This document shows, piece by piece, positions 37,605 to 59,314 of a DNA stretch of 64,000 nt. The notes under the pieces are model-generated. The model made no database searches. It saw only the letters and a program-made list of their open reading frames with translations, and had not been told where the DNA came from. The translations under genes were made by a program, and so were the position numbers. Numbering within the stretch: position 1 is the first letter of the stretch; each line of letters starts with the position of its first letter. Origin of the DNA: Hujiaoplasma nucleasis (lineage in GTDB: Bacteria; Bacillota_I; Bacilli_A; Izemoplasmatales; Hujiaoplasmataceae); the NCBI RefSeq assembly GCF_013745115.1, contig NZ_CP051151.1, positions 1,488,001-1,552,000 on the forward strand, in the 5' to 3' direction.

Positions 37605-38195
37605 ATGAGTTTAAAGTTAAAAGAAATGTCTAAGGAAGAACTATGGCATTTATTTCCTATCATTTTAAAAGAACACAATCCTGACTATAAAAATTGGTAT
37701 GAAGAAGAAAAGAAAAAGCTTATTTCCATGATTGGTAAAGATAAAATTCAAAGAATCAATCACATAGGATCAACATCAGTGCATGGTTTAATAGCTAAAC
37801 CAACCATTGATATTTTAATTGAAGTAGAAAATGAACAAGTCATTCATGACATTAAAGAAATATTGAACTCTGATGAATATATTTGTCTTGAACAAAAGGA
37901 TGTATACAAAAATCCTGCTATTTTTTGTATGAAGGGCTATAGTGAGAATGGTTTTGCGGAAAAGGTTTACCATATTCATATTAAAATTATAAATAATCAT
38001 AAGGAATTATATTTTAGAGATTATTTGCAAAGTCATCCTGAAGTAGCTAATAAATATGGTGACTTAAAGATTCAATTATTGAAGAAATATAAACACCATC
38101 GAGATAATTATACGGACAATAAGACTGAATTTGTTCAATATTATACATCCATAGCTCGTAGTATTTATCCAAACAGGTATAAACCAAAGAAGTAA
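37605..38195 (+). CDS. GrpB-like nucleotidyltransferase-fold protein (UPF0157)
   Basis: Matches the GrpB/UPF0157 family: RINHIGSTSVHGLIAKPTIDILIEV is the nucleotidyltransferase-like GS-x-(7-12)-D-x-D/E motif, and HIHIKIINNHKELYFRDYLQSHPEVANKYGDLK is the conserved second block. Some relatives act as dephospho-CoA-linked or nucleotidyl transferases, but the reaction here is unknown. ATG 37605 was chosen because AAAGGAGA (37593-37600) precedes it; the in-frame ATG at 37581 has no ribosome site. Confidence 0.85.
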   Translation: MSLKLKEMSKEELWHLFPIILKEHNPDYKNWYEEEKKKLISMIGKDKIQRINHIGSTSVHGLIAKPTIDILIEVENEQVIHDIKEILNSDEYICLEQKDVYKNPAIFCMKGYSENGFAEKVYHIHIKIINNHKELYFRDYLQSHPEVANKYGDLKIQLLKKYKHHRDNYTDNKTEFVQYYTSIARSIYPNRYKPKK

Positions 38196-38365
38196 TTTTC
38201 TTTGGTTTATATTATTTTTACTCAATTATTTATTTTTTATATGAAGATTATGCTAAATATGAAAAAAATTTGTTTTTCTTATAGAAAAATATGTAGTTTT
38301 TCATTTAATTAAGATAAAATATAGATATAAAGATAGAATTTATCTTTAAGAGGGGGTTTTATGTT

Positions 38366-41300
38366 ATGAAAAAGATTTTATTAATGATTTCTTTATCACT
38401 TATAGCTTTATTCTTAATAGCTTGTGATGGAACTGGAATTACGACAGACAATTTAACATTACCTAATATCACAACAGGAACTCAGCTGCCGACAACTGAG
38501 GATATCTCCGATGAGCCAGCAACTGAAATTCCAACAACAAGTGAGCATCCAACTCAAGAACCAACAACTTATGAAAGTTCTACTGGAGAACCAACCTCAG
38601 TTCACACAGAAGAGGATACAGTGGTTCCTACAAATGAGCCTACCAATGATTCAACATTAAGTGGGCAATTAGATGTTGTGACTGGCTTAAACATCAACCA
38701 ATCAACTAAAGTCCTATCTTGGATAGGTGTCCAAGGGGCTATTGGCTATGATATTTATGTTGATGGTGAGTTTTTTATTCATGTATCAACAACATCTTAT
38801 GATTTTTCATCTATGACTGCAGATTCGATCTTATTTTCAATTGTTGCTAAAGCACCTAGTGGCTTAAGCGATTCTGCTATGTCTTCAACCATTGCTTATA
38901 TGGGTGATAAGGCATCACAAATACAAGCAATGATTCTTGTCTTGAATTCAAGTCCGATGGATTTCCATGATTCGGAAGCTTTTGCTACTGAACTTGTAAG
39001 TAAGGGTATGACAGCGGATGATATGGATGAAATGATGACTCAAATAATGTCTTTGGAACAAATATCATTTGATGATTTTAATGATTTCTTTGCTTTTATC
39101 GATGGCATTATTGAATCCATGGATAGATATATGATAGAAGCATTTTTATCAGCCCTTATTAAAGTAGAATTACCAGTCTTATTGCAAGAACAATTAGACT
39201 ATTATATGGAGTTACATGGTCAAGAATATTATTACGATGAATATTATGATAAAAGTCTCGTTTATGATTATTCTGAAGACATTCATATGATAGAATCATT
39301 ATTGCTTTTCTTGGAAAGTCATTCTGATCAATCAGTTCAAACGATAATGGTTTTTATTGATTATTTGATGGCTGTTGAAGCATCAATCAATCAAGATATG
39401 ATTACTGATTTAGAAGATATCATCATGACTGGACCTTTTGAAGAATTATCAATCATGTTAATTGTATCTTTAAAGAATGAGTTAGTTAATGATTTGATTA
39501 TTAATTTACCAACATTAGAAGAAATGGTCTTAGTTAACACGACAATGATGGCCTTCATTGATGTTTTGAGTGAAGGTGAAATTGATTTATCAATGATTTC
39601 TGTTGTTGATCAAGCCCAACAAGAACTAATGATTTTAGAGTTAGTGTTTAACTTCCTTTTAGAAATAGACCAAGACTATATTAGAGCTTTTGCTCAAGCA
39701 GCTATGGGCGCGAATATATTAGATGCAAAAGAATTTATTAAGCAAAACTTTTATGCATTTGATAGGTTTATGAATAATAACCAAATCTTATTAGATAGTT
39801 TAGATGCATCAATGTCTAGTGACTTGCTAGAAGAAATTTTTATTGAAATGATCTTTATACCTCTTATGATTGAAGAATATTATTCTTATACTTATGACAG
39901 GGAATACGACCCAGAAGTTGAAGAAGAAATAGCTTTATTGGTGAGAGAATACATTGATTTTTCAGATATATTATTATTTGGTGATTCATTAAAAGATTCA
40001 ATGGAATTGATATTTGATACACTAATAGAAAATGATTTAGCCATAGTGGATGATTTCATTGAGCTCATGATGTTAGAACAAGGTGGGTCTAATGTTGTGG
40101 CCCATAATGATGATTTTGATGATATTAATTTCTACATCAATGTACTATTAGAAGCTGGTAATTATGACTTAGTGGTTAGGGGATATGATGATATTGACCA
40201 TGGTGAGATCGTTATTTATGTTTATGCAGGTGGATATTTACTGAATGAAGATCCTGTATACTTAAATCAAGGACAAGAACTTGTGATTCCATTAACATTA
40301 ACTTCTAAAATGAATGTTGAATTTTATACATCAGGTGAGGTTGATACAGTCGGAACGATTATCAGTACTGATTCACAAGTTAGAACACGCGCACAAATAC
40401 AAGCTTCTTTAATCAATGGAATCATTGACCTAGTGAATCCTGTCATTCAAAATGTAACTATAGAAGAATATCAAGCCTTAATTGATATTATTTTTGCTAA
40501 TGTTTACTTACAAATGGAAATTGTGTCTTTAACAGGTAATGATTTTACTGATTATATGAGGACTGCTCAATTTGTTGAAATGGCGATTAGAAATACCATG
40601 GAAAATCAAATCAATATCATACAAAATACGATTAATGTATTAGATGACACTACTTTTATTGATGATTTAATGTCAATGTATGATACTTATTTTGAAGACG
40701 AATTGGGCTATTATGGCTTAGCTATTATTTATGCGAATTTAGTAGATGATGTATATAGTGCTAATCAAGTTGATATAGATGTGCTTATAGAGGAATTTAT
40801 TACAACGATTTCAGATCCTGAAATGATGTTATTATTAATGTTAAATGAAGATGATATTTTGAATATTGAAAACGTAATTAATTCATACATTAATGATTTA
40901 ACAACCCAAGCAAAGCTTATTAAGGATTATGATTATCAACTTATAACGGAAACACAAATGTTAGACGTTGAAGAATTTATTCTAACATTAGAAGAATTGG
41001 GTATTTATATTGAGATTCCTAGTCAAGTAAAGGGTTATGAACCTGGTGTAGTACTTTCTGAGATTGAAATCTTTGTGCCGTATGAGGTTCAAGATTTTTA
41101 TCAAATGATAGCATATGATTATATTGAGGCCTACAACAATGATCCGCAAAACCAATACTTATATCCGCATGATATTTATGTCTATGGTGTTGATAATTAT
41201 GAACTTATAGATAAGGAATATTATAGTGAAGGTGGTCCTGATATTTTCGCTATTCCACAACCTTTGTTGGGAGGAATGGTTGCTGAAATGGATTTAATTA

Positions 41301-44008
41301 GTCCAATTCAATCTCAAGAGTTAATTGACTACATGCTTAATTTCCTTGATGATGATTTGGTTGAAGATACTCTTTATGATGGGGAATTTTATGGTGTACC
41401 TTATTCAATGGAATCATTATTCTTGTTTTATGATAAGAGATTATTATCAGAAGAAGATGTTTTAAGTTGGGAAGGTATTTGGGCAAAATCACAAACATTA
41501 GGTGTCAATGCTTCTGCCATAACTTCTCCTGATAATTATAATAACTCATTCTTAATATTAGCTTCATATTTAGATAGTGGTCAAATGCCAGTGACCTTAT
41601 TCCAAGATGGTATCAATACCAATACTGATTTTGTTAATGATGCATCCATTTCAGTAATGAAATGGGGTCAAAGAATCTTCTCTGATACTTATGGAATACA
41701 AAATTTTAGTCCTTCTGAAGCTATAAATAAAATGCAAAATCAAGAACTTTTGTCTTTTATAGGTGGACCTTGGCATATGAATGATGTATATGCAACGATG
41801 GGCGAAAATCTTGGTATTGCTGTTTTACCGACATTCATATTAACTGAAGAAGATGTTTATGGTTCAGTTCAAGTAGGTACTCAAATGAAGTCTGGTGCCT
41901 TTACTGATGGAAAAGTCTTTGTTAAAAATCAATACTCATATGAATCTGAGTACTTAGATGATTTATTAGCTTATTTTGTTTCTTATGAAGTTCAAGAGTT
42001 TGCGGTTGCTTATGATAATATAGCGCCTACATATAAGTATGCAAATGAAGAATTTTATTCATTAAGTCATGATGATATTTGGGTTCAAATGCTTAGAACC
42101 CAAGTGGACATGTTAAAACAAGGCATTCCTCAACCATTTAAGAGCAAAGAAACAAATATTTCTTTATATTATAATAGTGGTACTGATGATATTTTGTTCT
42201 TCTTATTATCTTTAGACCATATCGTAAATACAGATGAACTTATCGTTGAAAACATGCAAGATATGGAAGATATATGGACCAGTCATGAAACATCAAATGA
42301 TCTAGATGGTTTCTATATTACCGGTAATTTTGCAGGGTGGTCTGATAGTTTTTCAAATCCTGATTATCAAATGATACCTACGGCGTCTGATAATCCTCTC
42401 TTTGTTGGAATGAATCCAAAAATTCAAACTGCTAGTGAAATTTATATCATTGATGTAATGATTCCTAGTGAAGATGCTGGTTGGTCAGAGTTTTATAACA
42501 TCGGAGGTACATCTTATGAGTTTAATGGTAATTTAACTGTCAAATTTGCTTATGTGCAAGATTATGACGGTATCATGGTTCCTAATTATTGGGCTCCATC
42601 ACCAGAAAGTGGAGTGGTCTATAATTTAACTCCAGAAACCTTATATATACCTGATTATGTTGATGACTATGGTAATCCTGGTGGAGACTGGAATTCAAAC
42701 CCTGTTGTTTTTGAACCGGGAAGATATATTATGGTTGTGGCAGTCATTGATGGTGAATTATGGTTTGGGGCTGTTGAAAAAGAAGTTAGTCAACCAGTAG
42801 AAGGGGCTATTGTTATAGGAAATACAGTTCCAACCACAGGTACTTTTGCTATGGTTGGTTTACCATTCAATCAAGGACTTTTAGCAGTTATTGACTACTA
42901 TAATACACATCTTACTGGTGATGAATTACCTATCGTATTTTCACATTATGATGATCAGTTCGACCCTGAATTGGCTTTAAATTATTTAGACAATTTACGA
43001 ACAATTGATGATGTTTTTGCAGTTGTAGGTCTTTTAGGAACTCCAACAGTCAATTATACTTATCAATTCTTTTTAGAAAACAATATACCTTTGATTTTCC
43101 CATTGAGTCCTAGTGATCAAATATACAATGAATATTCTATGAATAACCCAATTATTCCTGTTCAACCAATCACTTATACTGAAGGAAGGTTTATGGCTTT
43201 AAGGGCTTTAACAACATCCATTTATGGACTTAATCAAGACCAAGCTTTTCCTAGCGATGGTAAAATAGTAATTATGTTTTCAGAAGACGAAAACACTGGT
43301 TTACCTACCATGTTTGGTATCGCTGACCAATTAGATCAATTGGGCTTTAATTGGGATAATGTATATTTCTTACCAGTCAATAGTGAGAATGTAGAAACTC
43401 AATTATCTACAATTGAGTCATTTAATCCTGATGTGATTTTAACTGGTCTAGACTATCAAACATTTATTGATGCGATGATGGCTATGGATGATCTAGGAAT
43501 TTCTATTCCAGTATTTGCTTCTTCAGCCAATACGAATTCTTACTTTATGGGCCTTAATTATTCTCCACAAAGACCTATCTATAACAATGCATGGATAAAT
43601 ATAGATATAACATCAAATGAATATTTAGAATATGTTCAAATGATTAATAGTGCCACTATTTTTGATGAAGCCACAAAACAATCTTTATTAGGAAATCCAT
43701 ATAGTATTTATGGTTATATAGCAGGATTAACACTTATTGAAGGTTTGTATCGAGTTCAAGATAATAATTTGGATATAACAGTCGAGAATTATATAGCTAT
43801 GATGGAATCAATGCCTATAAATATCCCTATGGCTGGTGACTTAGATTTATCTAATGGTAGTCGAATTGGTGCTAATTCAATGTCATTGATACAATATAAG
43901 GTTGGTGATAATCCAAATACTGTTGAAATAGAAACAGATGCTATTTATTGGGTTTTAATTGAAGATTATGTAGATATTTATGATTTACAAGCTGAATTAA
44001 TTGAATAA
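38366..44008 (+). CDS. Giant lipoprotein combining two kinds of solute-binding domain
   Basis: 1880 residues. The order is: signal peptide with lipobox (LFLIAC, about residue 20); Thr/Pro/Glu linker (25-105); an FN3-like domain (about 108-180); a long, mostly helical region (180-870) enclosing a beta-sandwich near 590-670; a family 1 extracellular solute-binding domain (about 890-1305, with DGEFYGVPYSMESLFLFYDKR and FIGGPWHMNDV); a beta module (about 1315-1480, ITGNFAGWSD); and a type I periplasmic-binding (LivJ/Peripla_BP_6) domain (about 1482-1875, IGNTVPTTGTFAMVG and VFAVVGLLGTPTV). No permease or ATPase gene is adjacent. It is probably a surface protein that captures sugars and small ligands. 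Residues 1-870 are paralogous to the protein at 56846. An inverted repeat (38328-38348) sits just before its AGAGGGGG ribosome site. Confidence 0.8.
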   Translation: MKKILLMISLSLIALFLIACDGTGITTDNLTLPNITTGTQLPTTEDISDEPATEIPTTSEHPTQEPTTYESSTGEPTSVHTEEDTVVPTNEPTNDSTLSGQLDVVTGLNINQSTKVLSWIGVQGAIGYDIYVDGEFFIHVSTTSYDFSSMTADSILFSIVAKAPSGLSDSAMSSTIAYMGDKASQIQAMILVLNSSPMDFHDSEAFATELVSKGMTADDMDEMMTQIMSLEQISFDDFNDFFAFIDGIIESMDRYMIEAFLSALIKVELPVLLQEQLDYYMELHGQEYYYDEYYDKSLVYDYSEDIHMIESLLLFLESHSDQSVQTIMVFIDYLMAVEASINQDMITDLEDIIMTGPFEELSIMLIVSLKNELVNDLIINLPTLEEMVLVNTTMMAFIDVLSEGEIDLSMISVVDQAQQELMILELVFNFLLEIDQDYIRAFAQAAMGANILDAKEFIKQNFYAFDRFMNNNQILLDSLDASMSSDLLEEIFIEMIFIPLMIEEYYSYTYDREYDPEVEEEIALLVREYIDFSDILLFGDSLKDSMELIFDTLIENDLAIVDDFIELMMLEQGGSNVVAHNDDFDDINFYINVLLEAGNYDLVVRGYDDIDHGEIVIYVYAGGYLLNEDPVYLNQGQELVIPLTLTSKMNVEFYTSGEVDTVGTIISTDSQVRTRAQIQASLINGIIDLVNPVIQNVTIEEYQALIDIIFANVYLQMEIVSLTGNDFTDYMRTAQFVEMAIRNTMENQINIIQNTINVLDDTTFIDDLMSMYDTYFEDELGYYGLAIIYANLVDDVYSANQVDIDVLIEEFITTISDPEMMLLLMLNEDDILNIENVINSYINDLTTQAKLIKDYDYQLITETQMLDVEEFILTLEELGIYIEIPSQVKGYEPGVVLSEIEIFVPYEVQDFYQMIAYDYIEAYNNDPQNQYLYPHDIYVYGVDNYELIDKEYYSEGGPDIFAIPQPLLGGMVAEMDLISPIQSQELIDYMLNFLDDDLVEDTLYDGEFYGVPYSMESLFLFYDKRLLSEEDVLSWEGIWAKSQTLGVNASAITSPDNYNNSFLILASYLDSGQMPVTLFQDGINTNTDFVNDASISVMKWGQRIFSDTYGIQNFSPSEAINKMQNQELLSFIGGPWHMNDVYATMGENLGIAVLPTFILTEEDVYGSVQVGTQMKSGAFTDGKVFVKNQYSYESEYLDDLLAYFVSYEVQEFAVAYDNIAPTYKYANEEFYSLSHDDIWVQMLRTQVDMLKQGIPQPFKSKETNISLYYNSGTDDILFFLLSLDHIVNTDELIVENMQDMEDIWTSHETSNDLDGFYITGNFAGWSDSFSNPDYQMIPTASDNPLFVGMNPKIQTASEIYIIDVMIPSEDAGWSEFYNIGGTSYEFNGNLTVKFAYVQDYDGIMVPNYWAPSPESGVVYNLTPETLYIPDYVDDYGNPGGDWNSNPVVFEPGRYIMVVAVIDGELWFGAVEKEVSQPVEGAIVIGNTVPTTGTFAMVGLPFNQGLLAVIDYYNTHLTGDELPIVFSHYDDQFDPELALNYLDNLRTIDDVFAVVGLLGTPTVNYTYQFFLENNIPLIFPLSPSDQIYNEYSMNNPIIPVQPITYTEGRFMALRALTTSIYGLNQDQAFPSDGKIVIMFSEDENTGLPTMFGIADQLDQLGFNWDNVYFLPVNSENVETQLSTIESFNPDVILTGLDYQTFIDAMMAMDDLGISIPVFASSANTNSYFMGLNYSPQRPIYNNAWINIDITSNEYLEYVQMINSATIFDEATKQSLLGNPYSIYGYIAGLTLIEGLYRVQDNNLDITVENYIAMMESMPINIPMAGDLDLSNGSRIGANSMSLIQYKVGDNPNTVEIETDAIYWVLIEDYVDIYDLQAELIE

Positions 44009-44020
44009 TTATTATTGTAT

Positions 44021-44061
44021 AAAAAAGCCAAAGAGTTTTTATAAATTCTTTGGCTTTTCTT
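44021..44061 (+). terminator. Rho-independent terminator of the giant lipoprotein gene
   Basis: AAAAAAGCCAAAGAG pairs with TTCTTTGGCTTTT (one mismatch) twelve bases after the stop. Confidence 0.8.
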
Positions 44062-44088
44062 GTAAAGAAAATTCGTAAATGCTATAAT
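44060..44088 (+). promoter_or_regulatory. Promoter of the DNA methyltransferase gene
   Basis: TTGTAA, a 17-base spacer and TATAAT, ending about 20 bases before ATG 44110. Its position rules out the longer frame that begins at 44050. Confidence 0.65.
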
Positions 44089-44109
44089 TTGTATACAATC
44101 GGAGGATTT

Positions 44110-45225
44110 ATGAAAGAAAACAAGGCCTTTTTAAACCAACAAGTTATGACCTATCTTGGAAATAAAAGAAAACTACTATTTGCCATTGAAAAAGAAATAA
44201 TCAAGATAAAAAACGAACTCAATCAAGAAAAACTTTCTATGGTTGATTTGTTTTCAGGAACAGGCATTGTTTCTAGAATGTTTAAACAACATGCTCATAG
44301 TCTGATTGTCAATGATTTAGAACTTTATAGTAAAATTACTAACCAATGTTATTTAAGTAATTATAGTGAATTTCAAGAAGAAGAGTATTTAAAGTATTAT
44401 AAACAAATTAAAGATAAAGAAAAAAATCATCGAACAAAGGGTCTTATTTCTAAAGAATATGCGCCTAAGGAAGATCTTGCCATCAAAATAGGTGAAAGAG
44501 TGTTTTATACATCTAAGAACGCTGAAACGATTGACACCCTTAGAAAAGCCATTGATGATGTTCCTAAAAATTATCAAAAGTATTTTTTAGGACCTTTAAT
44601 TTATGCAGCTTCTGTACATAATAATACTGGGGGTATTTTTAAAGGTTTTTATAAGGATAGTCAAACAGGGATTGGTAAATTTGGTGGCAATGGCCAACAT
44701 GCCTTAAAAAGAATTACGGGTGATATTAAACTATTAAAACCAGTTTTTAGTCATTTTGAAACAAGGGTAGATATATATCAAAAAGATTCTAATCAATTGG
44801 TTAAAGAATTAGATTTGGTTGATCTTATTTATATTGATCCGCCATATAATCAACATCCTTATGGTTCTAATTATTTTATGTTAAATCTCATTATAAAAAA
44901 TAAAATAGAGGCTGATGTCTCTAAAGTATCAGGTATTCCTAATGATTGGAATAGGTCTAATTATAATAAAAAACATAAGGTGCTAGAGACTTTTACAGAC
45001 TTGATTCAACATGCTAAGGCGAAATATTTACTTATTTCTTATAACTCAGAAGGTTATATATCTTTTGATGAAATGGAAAAAGTCTTAAGAAAATATGGAG
45101 AGCTTTCTATTAATAAAATTAGGTATAATACATACAGAGCATCAAGAAATTTAAGACAAAGAGATAAATATGTACATGAATACTTATTTGTTTTAAAAAA
45201 AGATAATTCTATTAAGATAAAATAA
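44110..45225 (+). CDS. D12-class DNA adenine-N6 methyltransferase
   Basis: Methylates adenine in DNA using S-adenosylmethionine. Motif X/N-terminus (QQVMTYLGNKRKLLFAIEKE), motif I (MVDLFSGTGIVSRMF) and catalytic motif IV (IYIDPPYNQHPYGSNYF) mark a MethyltransfD12 enzyme. There is no neighbouring restriction gene, so it is solitary here. Start ATG 44110 has CGGAGG five bases ahead and its own promoter. Recognition sequence cannot be read from the protein. It may guard against a partner nuclease elsewhere or regulate replication or expression. Confidence 0.85.
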   Translation: MKENKAFLNQQVMTYLGNKRKLLFAIEKEIIKIKNELNQEKLSMVDLFSGTGIVSRMFKQHAHSLIVNDLELYSKITNQCYLSNYSEFQEEEYLKYYKQIKDKEKNHRTKGLISKEYAPKEDLAIKIGERVFYTSKNAETIDTLRKAIDDVPKNYQKYFLGPLIYAASVHNNTGGIFKGFYKDSQTGIGKFGGNGQHALKRITGDIKLLKPVFSHFETRVDIYQKDSNQLVKELDLVDLIYIDPPYNQHPYGSNYFMLNLIIKNKIEADVSKVSGIPNDWNRSNYNKKHKVLETFTDLIQHAKAKYLLISYNSEGYISFDEMEKVLRKYGELSINKIRYNTYRASRNLRQRDKYVHEYLFVLKKDNSIKIK

Positions 45226-45265: not shown

Positions 45266-45682
45266 ATGAAACATTATCGTAAAGAATTATGGTTTGACAC
45301 TTCAAAACGTAGAGAATTTATTAATATCACAAGAGATATTCAAGCTTGTATTGATGAAAGTCAAATATCTGAAGGTTTTGTCTTAGTCAATGCAATGCAT
45401 ATTACAGCTTCAGTTTTTATCAATGATGATGAAGCAGGCCTACACCATGATTTTGAAATGTTTTTAGAGAAAATAGCGCCAGAAAAGCCATATAACCAAT
45501 ACATGCATAATACTTATGAAGATAACGCTGATGCCCATATAAAAAGAACGATTATGGGTAGGGAAGTGGTTTGTGCCATCACGAAGGCTAAGTTAGATTT
45601 TGGCCCTTGGGAACAAATTTTCTATGGTGAGTTTGATGGAAAAAGAAGAAAAAGAGTTTTAGTGAAAATTATCGGTCAATAG
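45266..45682 (+). CDS. YjbQ-family protein (UPF0047)
   Basis: Characteristic YjbQ blocks are present: a strand with [37 protein letters not shown], the [15 protein letters not shown] loop with likely metal-binding His residues, and the C-terminal [22 protein letters not shown]. coli YjbQ has weak thiamine-phosphate synthase activity; the true role is unsettled. 138 residues is normal. The potassium-channel gene begins 10 bases after its stop. Confidence 0.9.
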
Positions 45683-45692
45683 AGGTGATATC

Positions 45693-46694
45693 TTGAATAT
45701 AAAGAAAATTTCCATATGGTTAGGTGTCATGTTAGGAATATTAATCCTTGGGAGTATTGGTTATCTTATTATTTTAGATATAACATTTATTGATGCTTTA
45801 TATATGACAATCATAACCATGTCAACAGTAGGTTTTAACGAAGTCTCAGAAATGAATACTATAGCAAAGATGTATACCATCATTATTATCTTATTAAGTG
45901 TTGGAATGATTGGATATATATTGAAAATAGTATTTGATTTCTTTAGTCAAGGAGATATAAGAGCGGTTTGGAGGCGGAATAAAATGGATAAAACAATTGA
46001 AAGTTTAAGTAATCATTATATTATATGCGGGGCTGGTGATACAGGCATTAATGTCATTACTCAGTTTATTAGAAGAGAAGTTCCCTTTGTGGTTGTTGAA
46101 AAGTCCGAAGAAGCCGTTAAAGAATTAGATGAACTAAATGTCTTGCATATCTTGGGTGATGCTTCTAAAGAAGAAGTTTTACAAAAAGCCGGCGTTGAAA
46201 GAGCTAAAGGCCTCATTACAACCCTTTCAAGTGATGCTGAAAATGTCTTTATTGTGATTACCGCTAGACAGTTAAATCATGATATATTCATTATTTCAAG
46301 ATTCCATGACAGACCAACAAGATCTAAATTAATTCATGCAGGAGCTAATCGAGTGGTATCACCCGATGAAATTGGCGGTAAAAAAATGGCTCAATTAATG
46401 ATATCTCCTAATGTGCAGTTCTTTGTGGATAATATTATTGATGCTAAAAATATGTCTATTAATATGGAAGAAGTCGTGGTCCATCAAGATTCAGAACTTG
46501 CTGGAAAATCATTAAGACAAGCAGATGTATCTAATAAGATAGGTTTAATCATTCTTGGCATTCGTAGAGAAGAAGATAAAATCATCTTTAATCCTAAAGC
46601 CAATGAAATATTAAGGGTTGGAGATAGAATGATTGTTGTTGGATCAAAAGAACAAATTACAAAAATTAGCGATATAGCTTTGGATAATAAATAA
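45693..46694 (+). CDS. Potassium channel with RCK (TrkA_N/TrkA_C) domain
   Basis: Two membrane helices (about 7-28 and 58-83) flank a pore loop with the filter TMSTVGFNEVSE, where TVGFN takes the place of TVGYG. A cytosolic RCK module follows: nucleotide-binding ICGAGDTG near residue 111, an acidic strand end (VVVEKSEE) typical of NAD(H)/ATP sites, and a TrkA_C domain from ~245 (VVHQDSELAGKSLRQADV). This is the MthK/Kch architecture for gated K+ flux. Start is TTG 45693 with GAGGTGAT ahead. Confidence 0.87.
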   Translation: MNIKKISIWLGVMLGILILGSIGYLIILDITFIDALYMTIITMSTVGFNEVSEMNTIAKMYTIIIILLSVGMIGYILKIVFDFFSQGDIRAVWRRNKMDKTIESLSNHYIICGAGDTGINVITQFIRREVPFVVVEKSEEAVKELDELNVLHILGDASKEEVLQKAGVERAKGLITTLSSDAENVFIVITARQLNHDIFIISRFHDRPTRSKLIHAGANRVVSPDEIGGKKMAQLMISPNVQFFVDNIIDAKNMSINMEEVVVHQDSELAGKSLRQADVSNKIGLIILGIRREEDKIIFNPKANEILRVGDRMIVVGSKEQITKISDIALDNK

Positions 46695-46729
46695 AAAATG
46701 AACGAGTTCAGTTTGAACTCGTTCATTTT
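46695..46729. terminator. Bidirectional terminator between convergent genes
   Basis: A perfect 16-base stem (AAAATGAACGAGTTCA with TGAACTCGTTCATTTT) around GTT lies between the channel gene (+) and heliorhodopsin (-). Confidence 0.92.
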
Positions 46730-46741
46730 AATTCATATGTT

Positions 46742-47542
46742 TTATGGTTGCATAATTCCAAAGAAGACTAGCCAAGCCAATAATGTTTTACCAACTAAAC
46801 TTAGAATAATATAGACTCTTTCACCATAAAGATAGTTTTTCCATTTACCAACACCTAAATATTGTAAAATCATATTCACTGGGAAGGTATTAAAAGTAAT
46901 GAAATAAACAACTACAATTGCCCAAACAAATCCAGGGATTTGATCAACGGCAGGTGTCGCAAACATTTGCATAACGATGATGACCCAAGGAATAATACCA
47001 GCGATAGAACCAAAAATGAATGGTAGCCAATTGACATCTTTTTTGTCTTTACCGCTATTCATTTGTTCCATCAATAATCCAAATAGATTCATAGATGCAT
47101 TAATGAAGAATATAAGTAATAAGGTACCTAAATCGTAAACACCAAATAAGGTAGCGATGAGTACAATCATAATTGATGATGATAAAGCATATTCATACCA
47201 TCTAAATTGATTCATTCCTTTTTCTAAATCTCTTGTATAGATTGCATAAGTTTTTTTAGGAAATGAAATAATCGCATGTGCAAGAGCAGATAAGAAGAGG
47301 AAACTTGCTACTAAAACAACGAATGGTAAAGCAAATAATACATTAGTGTCTAATACTAGACCCTCACCATCAAAATCTAAGAATGAAATGGTAATATCTG
47401 GTTGAAATAATGGTGCTCCGTCTAATAAGGCATTTTGTACAACTGTGTACGCAAGAATTAACATGATTATACCTTGTAATAAGTGAACTCCACCCATAAT
47501 CATGTTAAAGCGTTTTAAACTTTCGAAACTAGTTTTTTCCAT
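46742..47542 (-). CDS. Heliorhodopsin
   Basis: Seven-helix retinal protein of the heliorhodopsin family, a light sensor without known strong pumping activity, embedded with its N-terminus inside. Signatures are complete: H20 (GGVHLLQG) and H89 (SALAHA) in the helices that carry the family's polar histidines; RWYEYALSSS with counterion E117; NASMNLFGLLMEQ; IIPWVII; FPVNMILQYLGVGKWKNYLYGERVYIILSLVGKTLLAW with K252 as the retinal Schiff-base lysine. Length 266 is typical. AAGGAGG precedes the ATG. It is divergent from the FakA-DegV/photolyase operon, a context that suggests a link to light stress. No retinal or carotenoid biosynthesis gene lies in the window. Confidence 0.92.
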   Translation of the reverse strand: MEKTSFESLKRFNMIMGGVHLLQGIIMLILAYTVVQNALLDGAPLFQPDITISFLDFDGEGLVLDTNVLFALPFVVLVASFLFLSALAHAIISFPKKTYAIYTRDLEKGMNQFRWYEYALSSSIMIVLIATLFGVYDLGTLLLIFFINASMNLFGLLMEQMNSGKDKKDVNWLPFIFGSIAGIIPWVIIVMQMFATPAVDQIPGFVWAIVVVYFITFNTFPVNMILQYLGVGKWKNYLYGERVYIILSLVGKTLLAWLVFFGIMQP

Positions 47543-47636
47543 ATAAATCCTCCTTGTAATTAATATAACACATCTTAAAAAAATAAATTGAAAAATGAAC
47601 CAAAAAATTAAACTGTGAGTATATTTATTTTAATGA

Positions 47637-47656
47637 ACATATGTTTATGGTATAAT
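47637..47656 (+). promoter_or_regulatory. Palindrome and -10 box of the FakA-DegV operon
   Basis: AACATATGTT (47637-47646), a perfect 10-base palindrome, lies immediately upstream of a TATAAT box at 47651-47656. An operator between -35 and -10 is possible. It lies in the divergent region shared with heliorhodopsin. Confidence 0.4.
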
Positions 47657-47691
47657 CCATACATAAAAACTAAAAATATTGAGGTGTAAAC

Positions 47692-49458
47692 ATGGAATAT
47701 TTGAATGGTCAAGATTTATATCAAATGTTTAATTATGGTACCAATTTTGTTGTAAAAAAAAGAAGATTATTAAATGATATTAATGTGTTTCCCGTACCCG
47801 ATGGTGATACTGGAAATAATTTAGTCCATACGATGCAAACCATATCAAGAGAATCAAAGGTATCTGATTCTTTTCAAGAAACGCTTGATTCTATCTCTGA
47901 TTCAGCCTTGATTGGTGCTAGAGGCAATAGTGGGATTATTTTTGCTCAGTTTGTCAATGGTTTAAGAAAAGCATCACTCAATAAAGATCAAGTCTCTATT
48001 GATGAGTTTACACAAATGGCTTTAGATTCAGTTGAACATGTATACGCTGCCTTATCTAACCCAGTAGAAGGAACCATGTTGTCAGTTATTAAAGATTGGG
48101 CTGAGGGTTTAAACCATATATTACATAAGGTAAAGAATATTAAAGATTACTTTAAACAAGCCTATAAAACAGCTGAAGTCTCTTTAGAAAAAACCAAAGA
48201 ACAATTGGCTGTATTAAAGAAGAACAATGTGGTAGATAGTGGGGCCTTAGGCTTTGTTTTATTTTTAAGTGGTGTTAATTCTTACTTTAATAATGAAGCC
48301 ATAGAACAAGTGGATTTTGAAGAAATAGAAATAGAATATGAACATGATTTTAATGAAGAAATCTCTTATCGATATTGTACAGAAGGTTTGGTTGAATACT
48401 TACCTGGATTAAATGAAGACCTTGTAAAAGAAGCCCTTAAAATCTATGGAGATTCTTTAGTGGTAGTCATGGGGTCACACATGTTTAGGGTTCATATTCA
48501 TACAGATCAACCTCATTTAGTCTTTAAAGAACTCAGAAGATTCGGAAAAATCATATCTCAAAAAGTCGATGATATGATTCAAGATATAGCTTTCAAGAAA
48601 AGCAAAAAAGATACTGTCATCGTAACAGACTCAATCGCTGATATTGATCCAATGTATTTAAAAGATCATGATGTGGCACAAATTCCTTTGAATATTACTG
48701 TGGATGATGTCCTTTACTATGATAAACTTACCATTAATAATGAAATCTTATTTGATATGATTGATGCTGGTTTAGAATATCCAACCACTTCTACACCAAG
48801 TATAAAATACATCAATGATTTATTTTCAAAACTTTTGTTACATTATAAAAATATCATCGTTATATTAGTTGCTGGTCAGTTAAGCGCAACTTATTCAGCC
48901 ATAAAAACAGAAGCTGATAAATTGATTGAAAAAGGCAAAAATATCCGTGTGATTAATTCTTTAAATAACTCAGTGTCTCAAGGATTGCTTGTTAAAAAAG
49001 CTGTAGAGATGTTAGAAGCAGGTCAATCATTTGATCAAATTGTTGAGCAAATAGAAACAATGAAACATAAGACCAAAGTATTGGTTTGCTTAGAAACGTT
49101 TAAATATGCAACCATGTCAGGGAGACTACCTAAGGCAGTTGGAAAAATTGGTATGTTCTTTAAAATTAGACCAATCATGACCTTAGATGAAAAAGGTAAA
49201 GGTGCTGCTTTTGGATTTGCCTTATCTCAAAAAGGTATTACAAAGAAAATTGTTGATTATGTAAAAAAAGATATGGAGACAAACGAGATTGAATCTTATG
49301 CTTTAATTCATTGTTTAAATCCTGAATTATTAGCAGAGTATCGAACATTGTTTACAGACCTGATTGGAAAAGCACCTGAATATGAAAGTGTAGTATCTAG
49401 TGCAACCATGATCCATTCTGGTAAGGGGTCAGTTGCTATTGGATATATCAAGAAGTAA
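47692..49458 (+). CDS. FakA-like (DAK2) protein fused to a DegV/FakB domain
   Basis: Residues 1-195 are a DhaL/DAK2 kinase domain: VFPVPDGDTGNN binds Mg-ATP through D37/D39, followed by GARGNSGIIFAQF and GTMLSVIKDWAE. Residues ~225-300 match the FakA middle domain (FRVHIHTDQP). Residues ~305-586 are a DegV fatty-acid-binding domain (VIVTDSIADI, YPTTSTPSI, VAGQLSATYSAI, GRLPKAVGKIG). In other Gram-positives these are separate: FakA phosphorylates the acyl group held by FakB. Here both are in one chain, apparently a self-contained fatty acid kinase. AGGTGTAAAC precedes ATG 47692; the photolyase gene follows directly. Confidence 0.85.
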   Translation: MEYLNGQDLYQMFNYGTNFVVKKRRLLNDINVFPVPDGDTGNNLVHTMQTISRESKVSDSFQETLDSISDSALIGARGNSGIIFAQFVNGLRKASLNKDQVSIDEFTQMALDSVEHVYAALSNPVEGTMLSVIKDWAEGLNHILHKVKNIKDYFKQAYKTAEVSLEKTKEQLAVLKKNNVVDSGALGFVLFLSGVNSYFNNEAIEQVDFEEIEIEYEHDFNEEISYRYCTEGLVEYLPGLNEDLVKEALKIYGDSLVVVMGSHMFRVHIHTDQPHLVFKELRRFGKIISQKVDDMIQDIAFKKSKKDTVIVTDSIADIDPMYLKDHDVAQIPLNITVDDVLYYDKLTINNEILFDMIDAGLEYPTTSTPSIKYINDLFSKLLLHYKNIIVILVAGQLSATYSAIKTEADKLIEKGKNIRVINSLNNSVSQGLLVKKAVEMLEAGQSFDQIVEQIETMKHKTKVLVCLETFKYATMSGRLPKAVGKIGMFFKIRPIMTLDEKGKGAAFGFALSQKGITKKIVDYVKKDMETNEIESYALIHCLNPELLAEYRTLFTDLIGKAPEYESVVSSATMIHSGKGSVAIGYIKK

Positions 49459-49459
49459 G

Positions 49460-50704
49460 ATGAATATTTCTAAAAGAAACAATGTAGTGGTTAGCGGCCA
49501 TAATCAGGAGAATTCTGTCATTTACCTTATGACTAAAACTTTTAGAATTAGAAACAATTATGGGTTATATCAAAGTTATGAATACGCAAAAAAACACCAT
49601 TGTAATTATAGAATCATCCTTGTAGAACCCTATGAAACAAATCAAAGAAATCTTGATTTTTTTAATCAATACAAAGACGATTTGATTAAAAAACTCAATC
49701 ATTTTACAAATGATATAGTCTTTGTTCAAAGGGAAATTTTAGATTTGAATCATTTATTAGCCCATACTATCTTTATGGATAAAGCCTATTTAAAATTTGA
49801 TTTAGAATTACTAAAGAAACTAAAATTAAGTGCCTATGAAAAAAACATGATTCTTATTGAAGTGGATTCTAATGTCTTGGTGCCTATCAGCTTAGCATCA
49901 GATAAGGAAGAGTATCAAGCGAGAACGATCAGGCCTAAAATTCATAAATTAATAAAGGACTTCTTAGAAGAAGTATACCTTGAAAAAGAATTATCTATAG
50001 CAGAAGAAAAAGCTTTTCAAGTTCTTGATGATTTTAAAAAGAACAAATTAAAGCAATATGATTTACACAATGATCCTTCTTTAGATAAAACTTCATTATT
50101 GAGTCCTTATTTAAAATATGGTTTTATATCTCCAGTAACGATCTATCATCATATGGATGATTTATGTGATGAAAATACTCAAGCTTTTTTAGAAGAGTTA
50201 ATTGTAAGAAGAGAGCTTGCTTATAATTTCGTTTATTATAACCAGGCTTATGATGAATTTGAATATATGACAGAAGCTTGGGCTTATCAAACCATGAAAG
50301 ATCATATCAATGATCGAAGAGACTATATTTATACAAAGGAAGACTATTTAAACTTTAAGACCCACGACCCTTATTTCAATGCGGCCATGAAAGAAATGGT
50401 TTACTTAGGGAGAATGCATTCTTTTATGAGGATGTATTGGTGTAAAAAGATTATTGAATGGTCGGCAACATATAAAGAGGCCTACCAAACAGCCCTTGAA
50501 TTAAATAACCATTATTTTTATGATGGTTTCACACCAAATGCTTATACAGGCGTTGCCTGGTGTTTTGGTAAACATGATCGGGCTTGGTTTGAAAGAGATA
50601 TTTTTGGTAAACTTCGTTATATGAACGACAATGGTTTAAAAAGAAAATTTAATATTGATGATTATGTAAAACAAATGAATTTATTAGAAAAAGGAGAAGA
50701 ATAA
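49460..50704 (+). CDS. Class II deoxyribodipyrimidine (CPD) photolyase
   Basis: Uses light and FAD to repair UV-induced pyrimidine dimers. The C-terminal half carries class II hallmarks: SPYLKYGFISPVTIY, FLEELIVRRELAYNFVYY, MVYLGRMHSFMRMYWCKKIIEW, and AYTGVAWCFGKHDRAWFERDIFGKLRYMN. The N-terminal antenna-type Rossmann domain is present (VVVSGHNQENSVIYLMTKTFRI). I chose ATG 49460, one base after the upstream stop, rather than the upstream TTG inside the preceding gene; translation is presumably coupled. Its stop overlaps the ATG of DUF2177 by one base. Confidence 0.9.
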   Translation: MNISKRNNVVVSGHNQENSVIYLMTKTFRIRNNYGLYQSYEYAKKHHCNYRIILVEPYETNQRNLDFFNQYKDDLIKKLNHFTNDIVFVQREILDLNHLLAHTIFMDKAYLKFDLELLKKLKLSAYEKNMILIEVDSNVLVPISLASDKEEYQARTIRPKIHKLIKDFLEEVYLEKELSIAEEKAFQVLDDFKKNKLKQYDLHNDPSLDKTSLLSPYLKYGFISPVTIYHHMDDLCDENTQAFLEELIVRRELAYNFVYYNQAYDEFEYMTEAWAYQTMKDHINDRRDYIYTKEDYLNFKTHDPYFNAAMKEMVYLGRMHSFMRMYWCKKIIEWSATYKEAYQTALELNNHYFYDGFTPNAYTGVAWCFGKHDRAWFERDIFGKLRYMNDNGLKRKFNIDDYVKQMNLLEKGEE

Positions 50705-56845: not shown

Positions 56846-59314
56846 ATGAAAAAATTATGGTTATTACTATTAAGTTTATTTGCTGTGGTTGGAATTATAT
56901 CATGTACTGGTGATGAAACATTACCTACTGATGAAACCGTCACAGTTTTTGAACAATTAGACATGCCAGTTAACTTAAGTGTTAACGACTCAACAAAAAC
57001 ATTAACTTGGGATCCGGTTGAAGATGCAGTTAAGTATAATGTATATGTTGATGGTGAATTAAAAACAGAAGTGACAGGAACATCTTATGATTTCTCTAGT
57101 TTAAGTGGAGAACAAATATCATTTACTGTTAAAGCTATTGCTCCTAGTGGTAAGTTAAATTCAAATATGAGTACTGGTGTTGCTTATGTTGCGAATAGAA
57201 CTCAAGCAAAAGCTGCTATGCAATTATCTTTACAACAATATGGATTAATAGTTGATGATTCTGAAGCGTTCGCTGAAGAATTAATCAACAAAGGTATGTT
57301 ATCTTCAGATTTAGATGCAATGATGACTTCACTGATGTCATTAGAAACAATGGATCCATCTGCAGGAGTATCAGCAATCTATAACGCAATTGATGGAGTT
57401 ATGGATGATATGGAATTACAAAACATTGAAGCCTTAGTATCAGCACTTATTAAAGTTCAATTACCAATATTAATTCAAGAAGAAATCGATTACTATCAAT
57501 CGAGAAATGCCACTTATGGTTATGATTTATATTCAGAAGATATCTTAATGTTAGAAAATTTATTAACATTTATTGAAGAAAATGCTGATGAAGCTGTTCG
57601 ATCAGTTATGATTATGGTTGAGTACATTATGGATATTGAAGCTTCAATTGATTCTGAAATGCTTGCTAATATTCAATCATTGATGAATTCATTTGAAACC
57701 TCTGATGAGCCTTCAAGTCAAGATATCGCAACAATCATTGCTATTAAGGACGATATGATTAATATGCTTAAGGATAACTTGCCTGAATTAGAAGACTTTG
57801 TGATGATTAATACAACAATGATGGCTATGGCTAGTATCATGGTTGAAGATGAAGTCAATCTTGCAATTGTTAATGTTTCAAAACAATCACTTGCTTCTAA
57901 ATTAAGTATTGAGTTAATGTTTGATTTTATGTTAGATATAGATCAAGCTTATCTTGAAGCTTTCGTTGAAGTCGCTGAAACAGAATCTCTTGATTCGGTT
58001 AAAGCTTTTATCAAAGAGAACCTTGGAATGATTGATGAATTCTTAGCTGACAACCAAAGTAAGATTGATGAAATCAATAACATTTATTCTGATGAAGAGA
58101 AAGAAGATATGTTTGTAGAATCAATGGTTATGACTATGACAGCTAACTTATATTACATGATGAATCTAGAAATTGATATGACTGAATTTGAAACAGAAAT
58201 AAGAACTATTTTTGAAGATAATTTTGATTTTAACAATATCTTGATTTTACAAGAAGCTATGGATGAAAACTTTAATGAATTGTTAGATGCAATTATTGCA
58301 AGTGATTATGCAATTATTGATAGAATATTTGATTTAGCTGCCTTTTCTAGTGGTGGAAACGTTTTTCTAATATATAATGATGATAATAATGGACTCGATT
58401 TTGGATTCGACTATTATCTTCCTGCTGGGACTTATTACCTAGTTACTGAAGGTTTAAATACTTATGAAAGTGGCTTCTTGCAAGTATTCTTATATGCTGG
58501 AGATACAGAGTTAGTCAATGATGAAACTTATTTGTCTGCTGGTGAAAGCCTTGCTTATGAGTTTACTTTAACACAAAGTTCATTCATCTATGCTTTTTCA
58601 GAAAGTGATTTAGATACAGTAGGTTATATAGTCACTGAAGAAGTATATTTAGGAACTTCATCAAATGAAATGACTGAAACAGAAGCTGGATTTGCATTAA
58701 TCAAAGAAGTTATGAACTTATTAAATCCAATGGTTCAAGACATGACGCTTACTGAATACGAAGCTTTTATAAATACTTTTTATTCTATAACCCAAGTTCA
58801 ATCAGCAATCAATGATATGATGTATGGTGAACTTCAAGGCGAAATGGGAATGAGTATGATGATGGTGATTTATGATGTTATTTTCCAAATGATTCAAGAT
58901 ACATCTGAAAATCATTTTAATTTAATTAAAAACTTATTCGCTACCATCAATTCTAATAATTATATAGATGATCTAGAAACAATAGTATCAGAAATAGATA
59001 CCAATGAAAATGCAACTTATGGATTAATGATCTTAATTTCTAATGTTTTCATAGATTTTTATGCGGATTCATCAACTGATATTAATGTTATGATTGATGA
59101 ATTTATTGTTCTTATGTCTACTCCGGAAATGATGGCTCAAACTGGCTTAACTTTGGCTCAAATTACGGAATTAGAAACTAATATTAACAATACTATTACG
59201 GAAACGATAGCCCAAGCAAACATTATTAAAGATTATGATTATACAAATTTAACACAAACTCAAATGACTAATGTTATGGCTTTCGCAGCATTATTCGGCG
59301 GATTATATTATTAA
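56846..59314 (+). CDS. Lipoprotein with FN3-like domain and long helical region
   Basis: The signal peptide ends with a lipobox (GIISC, about residue 20). An FN3-like domain covers about 39-112 (LDMPVNLSVNDSTKTLTWDPVEDAVKYNVYVDG). A long acidic, Met-rich helical region follows, with a beta-sandwich insert near 515-600 (YYLPAGTYYLVTEGL, VFLYAGD). The protein ends at NIIKDYDYTNLTQTQM plus a short tail. This is the same architecture, with the same phrases, as residues 1-870 of the giant lipoprotein at 38366, but without the two solute-binding domains. The two are clear paralogues. Surface location is likely; function unknown. Confidence 0.8.
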   Translation: MKKLWLLLLSLFAVVGIISCTGDETLPTDETVTVFEQLDMPVNLSVNDSTKTLTWDPVEDAVKYNVYVDGELKTEVTGTSYDFSSLSGEQISFTVKAIAPSGKLNSNMSTGVAYVANRTQAKAAMQLSLQQYGLIVDDSEAFAEELINKGMLSSDLDAMMTSLMSLETMDPSAGVSAIYNAIDGVMDDMELQNIEALVSALIKVQLPILIQEEIDYYQSRNATYGYDLYSEDILMLENLLTFIEENADEAVRSVMIMVEYIMDIEASIDSEMLANIQSLMNSFETSDEPSSQDIATIIAIKDDMINMLKDNLPELEDFVMINTTMMAMASIMVEDEVNLAIVNVSKQSLASKLSIELMFDFMLDIDQAYLEAFVEVAETESLDSVKAFIKENLGMIDEFLADNQSKIDEINNIYSDEEKEDMFVESMVMTMTANLYYMMNLEIDMTEFETEIRTIFEDNFDFNNILILQEAMDENFNELLDAIIASDYAIIDRIFDLAAFSSGGNVFLIYNDDNNGLDFGFDYYLPAGTYYLVTEGLNTYESGFLQVFLYAGDTELVNDETYLSAGESLAYEFTLTQSSFIYAFSESDLDTVGYIVTEEVYLGTSSNEMTETEAGFALIKEVMNLLNPMVQDMTLTEYEAFINTFYSITQVQSAINDMMYGELQGEMGMSMMMVIYDVIFQMIQDTSENHFNLIKNLFATINSNNYIDDLETIVSEIDTNENATYGLMILISNVFIDFYADSSTDINVMIDEFIVLMSTPEMMAQTGLTLAQITELETNINNTITETIAQANIIKDYDYTNLTQTQMTNVMAFAALFGGLYY

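Follow-up and report, generated by a model that had tools for sequence, protein, structure and literature searches.

The window analyzed here is a stretch of 64,000 nucleotides from the genome of Hujiaoplasma nucleasis, and nucleotide positions below refer to it, except those in kb, which refer to the genome, and those of L046, L047, and L083, which refer to these loci. On its plus strand, which also carries all features of the gene listed here, a single frame remains open from 38366 to 44008 and encodes 1880 amino acids without an internal stop, as read from the sequence and its translation. The initial annotation had described one continuous frame with a lipobox, and this description was borne out: the protein starts with a signal peptide ending in the lipobox LIAC, followed by a T/P/E-rich linker (residues 1 to 97; 38366 to 38656), and Cys20 of the lipobox is the only cysteine of the whole chain. 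An N-terminal signal peptide with a lipobox cysteine, as in bacterial lipoproteins, is thus seen in MKKILLMISLSLIALFLIAC. Matches of residues 1 to 104 within the same genome showed that the linker is common to other lipoproteins of H. nucleasis. The gene has its own ribosome-binding site, GAGGGGG (38350 to 38356), 9 nucleotides 5' of the ATG at 38366. It is separated from the upstream grpB gene by a terminator-like hairpin found in a promoter/terminator scan (38176 to 38213; a 17-pair stem followed by a T-run), and a second terminator hairpin follows its 3' end (44018 to 44064; −20.4 kcal/mol, z = −7.8). Given the ribosome-binding site, the lipoprotein signal peptide, and the hairpins on either side, the gene looks like a single-gene transcription unit. 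The composition of the protein is unusual (1.7% lysine, 1.1% arginine, and no cysteine past Cys20) but agrees with that of the exported proteins of this genome, which accounts for part of its odd makeup. Such exported proteins, for example the one encoded at 56846 to 59314, contain 1 to 3% lysine, compared with 8 to 14% in cytoplasmic proteins, and are nearly free of cysteine.

The N-terminal part of the mature protein starts with an FN3-like domain (residues ∼104 to 180; 38675 to 38905). This domain, already proposed in the initial annotation, was recovered by family profile comparison with FN3 domains in the PDB (E values of 9.6e-06 and 0.0037), by its predicted strands, and by Foldseek, whose top match was the FN3 domain of chitinase A1 (1k85) with a probability of 1.00, though with an E value of 0.02. 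We used AlphaFold2 to predict the structures of this N-terminal part (residues 98 to 885; mean pLDDT of 81.8) and of a module further downstream, referred to as module X here. The model shows a helical region at residues ∼182 to 572 (38909 to 40081) and a second one at residues ∼669 to 880 (40370 to 41005). The helical region of about 700 residues described earlier is therefore helical at residues 182 to 572 and 669 to 878 but is interrupted by a beta-sandwich at residues ∼573 to 668 (40082 to 40369; low pLDDT of about 46 to 67 over much of the segment). The sandwich weakly resembles carbohydrate-binding jelly rolls of CBM35, CBM6, and CBM51 (Foldseek probability up to 1.00, E value of about 0.1). 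Residues 85 to 873 have a paralogue in the same genome, encoded within the window at 56846 to 59314, with 36% identity. FN3-helical lipoproteins also occur in related genomes, where in many loci their gene lies 3' of genes for an ABC ATPase and a permease-sized protein of ∼800 codons; two such permease-sized genes were scanned, and one of them matched FtsX and, weakly, MacB. Among the loci inspected (L092, L095 to L098, L100, L101, and L105 to L111), many have the lipoprotein gene directly 3' of the ∼800-codon gene, some with the ABC ATPase gene before it. In the genus of H. nucleasis, the FN3-helical lipoprotein is found instead near undecaprenyl-diphosphatase-like and MinD-like genes.

The helical part is followed by a solute-binding domain of the CUT1 (MalE/GanS-like) type at residues ∼900 to 1307 (41063 to 42286). 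Pfam places SBP_bac_8 at residues 957 to 1226 (E value of 1.8e-14; 54.7 bits against a curated cutoff of 27), and alignment to the operon-encoded paralogues extends the domain to the entire mature domain. The earlier assignment of a binding domain to this region hence stands, while its family is better described by SBP_bac_8 than by SBP_bac_1. Profile comparison with the PDB retrieved 9kha (E value of 5.6e-22) and MalE1 (2e-15), and NCBIfam pointed to GanS/MalE with scores far below the respective cutoffs. In related genomes, CUT1-type binding proteins head an operon that continues with MalF, MalG, an alpha-amylase lipoprotein, and a protein of the module X type. The free-standing copies of these MalFG/amylase operons (L045, L051 to L054, and L060; PF13416) have the same full-length domain and are 31 to 42% identical to the fused copy; the relative in the same genome, located at 438 kb, is 40% identical over residues 892 to 1311. 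Unlike them, the fused copy is an internal part of a giant lipoprotein, lacks a signal peptide of its own and adjoining permease genes, and has lost the HDN/HDR loop, which is present in all full-length operon copies and is replaced by QPL at residues 965 to 967. For a comparison of the binding pockets, we mapped the domain on the sequence and sugar-contact residues of MBP (D14, H64-D65-R66, E111, E153, Y155, W230, and W340/Y341). In this mapping, the replaced loop corresponds to H64-D65-R66, the aromatic residues Y1058, W1136, and Y1268/Y1269 align with Y155, W230, and W340/Y341, and acidic residues are found at the positions equivalent to D14, E111, and E153.

Module X, a beta-rich module at residues ∼1316 to 1473 (42311 to 42784), is related to the lipoprotein encoded last in the MalFG/amylase operon and shows 24 to 48% identity to 16 other X modules. 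Its separate relative in the same genome, at 739 kb, is 50% identical over residues 1315 to 1476. The fold is predicted with confidence (pLDDT of 89), and searches for related families and folds returned no significant match: CBM53 reached at best an E value of 0.024 in 3 of 17 copies, SusF had an E value of 0.46, and Foldseek gave nothing below 0.09. SusE and SusF are starch-binding outer-membrane lipoproteins of Bacteroides. Module X shares with them its occurrence in a surface lipoprotein, its position beside starch uptake machinery in related genomes, and a start, FYITGNFAGW, that resembles GYYIVGDFTGWD of SusF, but the likeness is not significant (E value of 0.46 for SusF and 0.59 with Foldseek). 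We therefore did not classify module X as a SusE/SusF or CBM starch-binding domain.

The C-terminal part of the protein is a LivJ-type solute-binding domain at residues ∼1480 to 1876 (42803 to 43993), as the initial annotation had also recognized. Pfam Peripla_BP_6 covers residues 1482 to 1845 (E value of 9.2e-22; 78.6 bits against a curated cutoff of 31.7), alignment to the operon paralogues extends the match to the complete mature domain, and profile comparison retrieved PDB 3lop (E value of 3.9e-20). Both binding domains thus score above the curated Pfam cutoffs in a domain search that had been set beforehand as a possible refutation. The domain is 28 to 38% identical to binding proteins of liv operons, in which the LivJ-type protein is found in related genomes; the separate relative in the same genome, at 899 kb, is 29% identical over residues 1480 to 1856. 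It is the same full-length domain as in LivJ-type binding proteins of the HAAT family (E value of 9e-22), but it lies at the C terminus of an 1880-amino-acid chain, while the other matches in the class are found in frames of 374 to 607 codons, and its ligand-loop motifs are altered (AATG to PLSP and SYVNAD to SSANTN). At the position equivalent to T102, one of the LivJ ligand contacts, it has a serine. The LivJ protein of the genome's own liv operon (L047, 7159 to 8400, minus strand) is itself far from the family type, with 28% identity to the fused copy and a branch length of 3.67, and the genes of this operon differ in size from those in the related genomes G001 and G003.

To describe the divergence of both binding domains, we aligned them with the separate operon copies and considered the columns conserved at 90%. 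The CUT1 domain retains 61% of these columns, compared with 86 to 97% in the other rows, and the LivJ-type domain retains 54%, compared with 86 to 100% in the other LivJ rows except for the LivJ protein of the same genome (64%). In the tree, their branches measure 3.46 and 4.54 changes per site, respectively, which is too long for a firm placement of the fused copies. A hand count from the alignment showed that the loss is even across polar and nonpolar columns, so that it demonstrates divergence rather than a proven change of role. A joint MAFFT alignment of all three C-terminal modules was discarded, as it drew the LivJ rows onto the CUT1 region.

Taken together, the chain consists of an entire FN3-helical lipoprotein joined to the mature parts of a CUT1 binding protein, module X, and a LivJ-type binding protein, and the signal peptides and linkers of the latter three are missing. 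The joins sit where the leaders of the separate proteins end, and every module has a free-standing relative both in the same genome and in related genomes. These relatives are all partners of ABC systems, namely, the MacB/FtsX type for the FN3-helical lipoprotein, the MalFG/amylase operon for the CUT1 binding protein and X, and the liv operon. The open reading frame is shown to encode a genuine composite lipoprotein, assembled from four ABC-associated parts and specific to this lineage. A search for homologues with the same domain order found none in 60 related genomes, in 90 genomes of the order, or in one scan of genome contigs, so that the fusion is known from one species only. In a class-wide search with Peripla_BP_6 (112 matches in 296 genomes), its frame of 1896 codons exceeded the next-longest one threefold.

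The genes flanking the fusion encode YfhO, GrpB, a D12 class adenine methyltransferase (44050 to 45225), UPF0047, a K+ channel, and heliorhodopsin; no nutrient importer permease or ABC ATPase was found among the neighbors annotated with Pfam and NCBIfam, and the MalFG operon with its own binding protein is located elsewhere. This agrees with the earlier view that two distinct classes of binding proteins in one surface lipoprotein with no adjoining transporter are unusual. We compared the slot between grpB and the UPF0047 gene at 38366 to 45225 with loci L065, L123, and L124. The two genes are adjacent in G003, are separated by a Na+/H+ exchanger gene in G001, and enclose the fusion and methyltransferase genes in H. 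nucleasis, and with these differing contents the slot looks like a variable insertion site. The methyltransferase, which lies in the same slot outside the composite protein, is missing from the slot in the sister species, and among 60 related genomes only G040 encodes a close relative (51% identity). The heliorhodopsin gene is flanked by the K+ channel gene and a gene for a DAK2/DegV fusion, and a photolyase gene is close by (45266 to 50704; L065 and L123 to L125); this order is conserved across the genus.

Since the fusion is absent from every other genome searched, a chimeric assembly or an annotation artifact had to be considered, and misassembly had been raised as a concern before. Strain zrk29 belongs to the order Izemoplasmatales and is a free-living deep-sea bacterium that lacks a wall and has been cultured; its genome is reported as one contig of 1,808,583 bp at a depth of 491.1x (GenBank CP051151; PMC10470597). 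A single contig at this depth, together with a block whose flanking genes are neighbors in a sister species, makes a chimeric assembly very unlikely, and hardly any probability remains for an artifact of either kind. The three joins are all in frame and at mature-domain boundaries, the modules are only 28 to 50% identical to their relatives in the same genome and thus offer no shared DNA for joining them, the flanks are syntenic with the sister species, and the gene has its own ribosome-binding site and terminators. The concern is thereby largely removed.

As for its function, we propose that the protein is a putative capture lipoprotein specific to this lineage, whose ligands would be of the glycan type and the amino acid type. 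We assign this reading a probability of about 50%, and a putative role as a multiligand scavenger fits the anatomy of the fusion. The FN3-helical lipoprotein supplies the lipid anchor and the stem, which would keep the chain attached to the outside of the only membrane that this wall-less bacterium has. The CUT1 domain together with module X would then capture a glycan or oligosaccharide near the cell, and the LivJ-type domain an amino-acid-like small solute. Since the two pockets have diverged from their operon counterparts, the chain is probably a surface for capture or adhesion whose specificity has changed, and not a receptor dedicated to a single transporter. The main rival, possible but clearly less probable, is that it acts as an auxiliary receptor in trans, from which the housekeeping permeases MalFG (around 438 kb) and LivHM (around 899 kb) would receive ligands. 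The genome encodes both of these transporters, neither fused domain is truncated, and some of the residues that contact sugar in MBP are kept. Against such delivery, each transporter is already served by its own binding protein, only 61% and 54% of the operon-conserved columns are retained, and the CUT1 domain begins about 880 residues past the lipid anchor.

It is also conceivable, but unlikely, that the binding domains have lost the ability to bind small ligands and that their part in the long surface protein is purely structural or adhesive. The very long branches, the unusual composition, and the loss of both ligand-loop motifs speak for such a role, but the aromatic sugar-stacking positions and pocket acids mapped on MBP are retained, and the loss of conserved columns, as far as can be read from the alignment, is not concentrated in functional residues. 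The multiligand sensor suggested in the initial annotation, which would relay ligand binding to the cell, appears quite improbable. LivJ-like and other periplasmic-binding folds do act as sensor inputs in other systems, but this chain has a lipid anchor only, Pfam and NCBIfam indicated no signaling output domain in its 1880 amino acids, and the neighbors are not signaling genes, with no kinase adjacent. Returning to the capture lipoprotein, a more far-reaching version would see in it a new kind of surface receptor, in which ectodomains of several unrelated ABC systems share one lipid anchor as a multinutrient capture arm serving several transporters in trans. We consider this version doubtful.

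A binding protein commonly works with a single transporter. The fusion shows that two unrelated classes of binding proteins and two further ABC-associated lipoproteins can recombine into a surface protein free of transporter domains, and its host is a cultured wall-less bacterium, so that ligands and role are directly testable. GlnPQ, with its tandem substrate-binding domains, likewise has two domains of differing specificity per chain, but these are linked to the transmembrane domain of the transporter (PMC8025302), whereas the fusion has no transporter domain and combines two different Pfam families. The fusion also directs notice to other giant lipoproteins with binding domains in the same genome. 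One of 1981 amino acids (L083, 600 to 6545, minus strand) contains SBP_bac_5, Ig-like, and CBM_4_9 domains, and another of 1107 amino acids (L046, 4522 to 7845, minus strand) combines a module X with SBP_bac_5. Like the fusion, both are long lipoproteins in which a binding domain is joined to putative glycan-binding modules, but each contains a single class of binding domain, SBP_bac_5.
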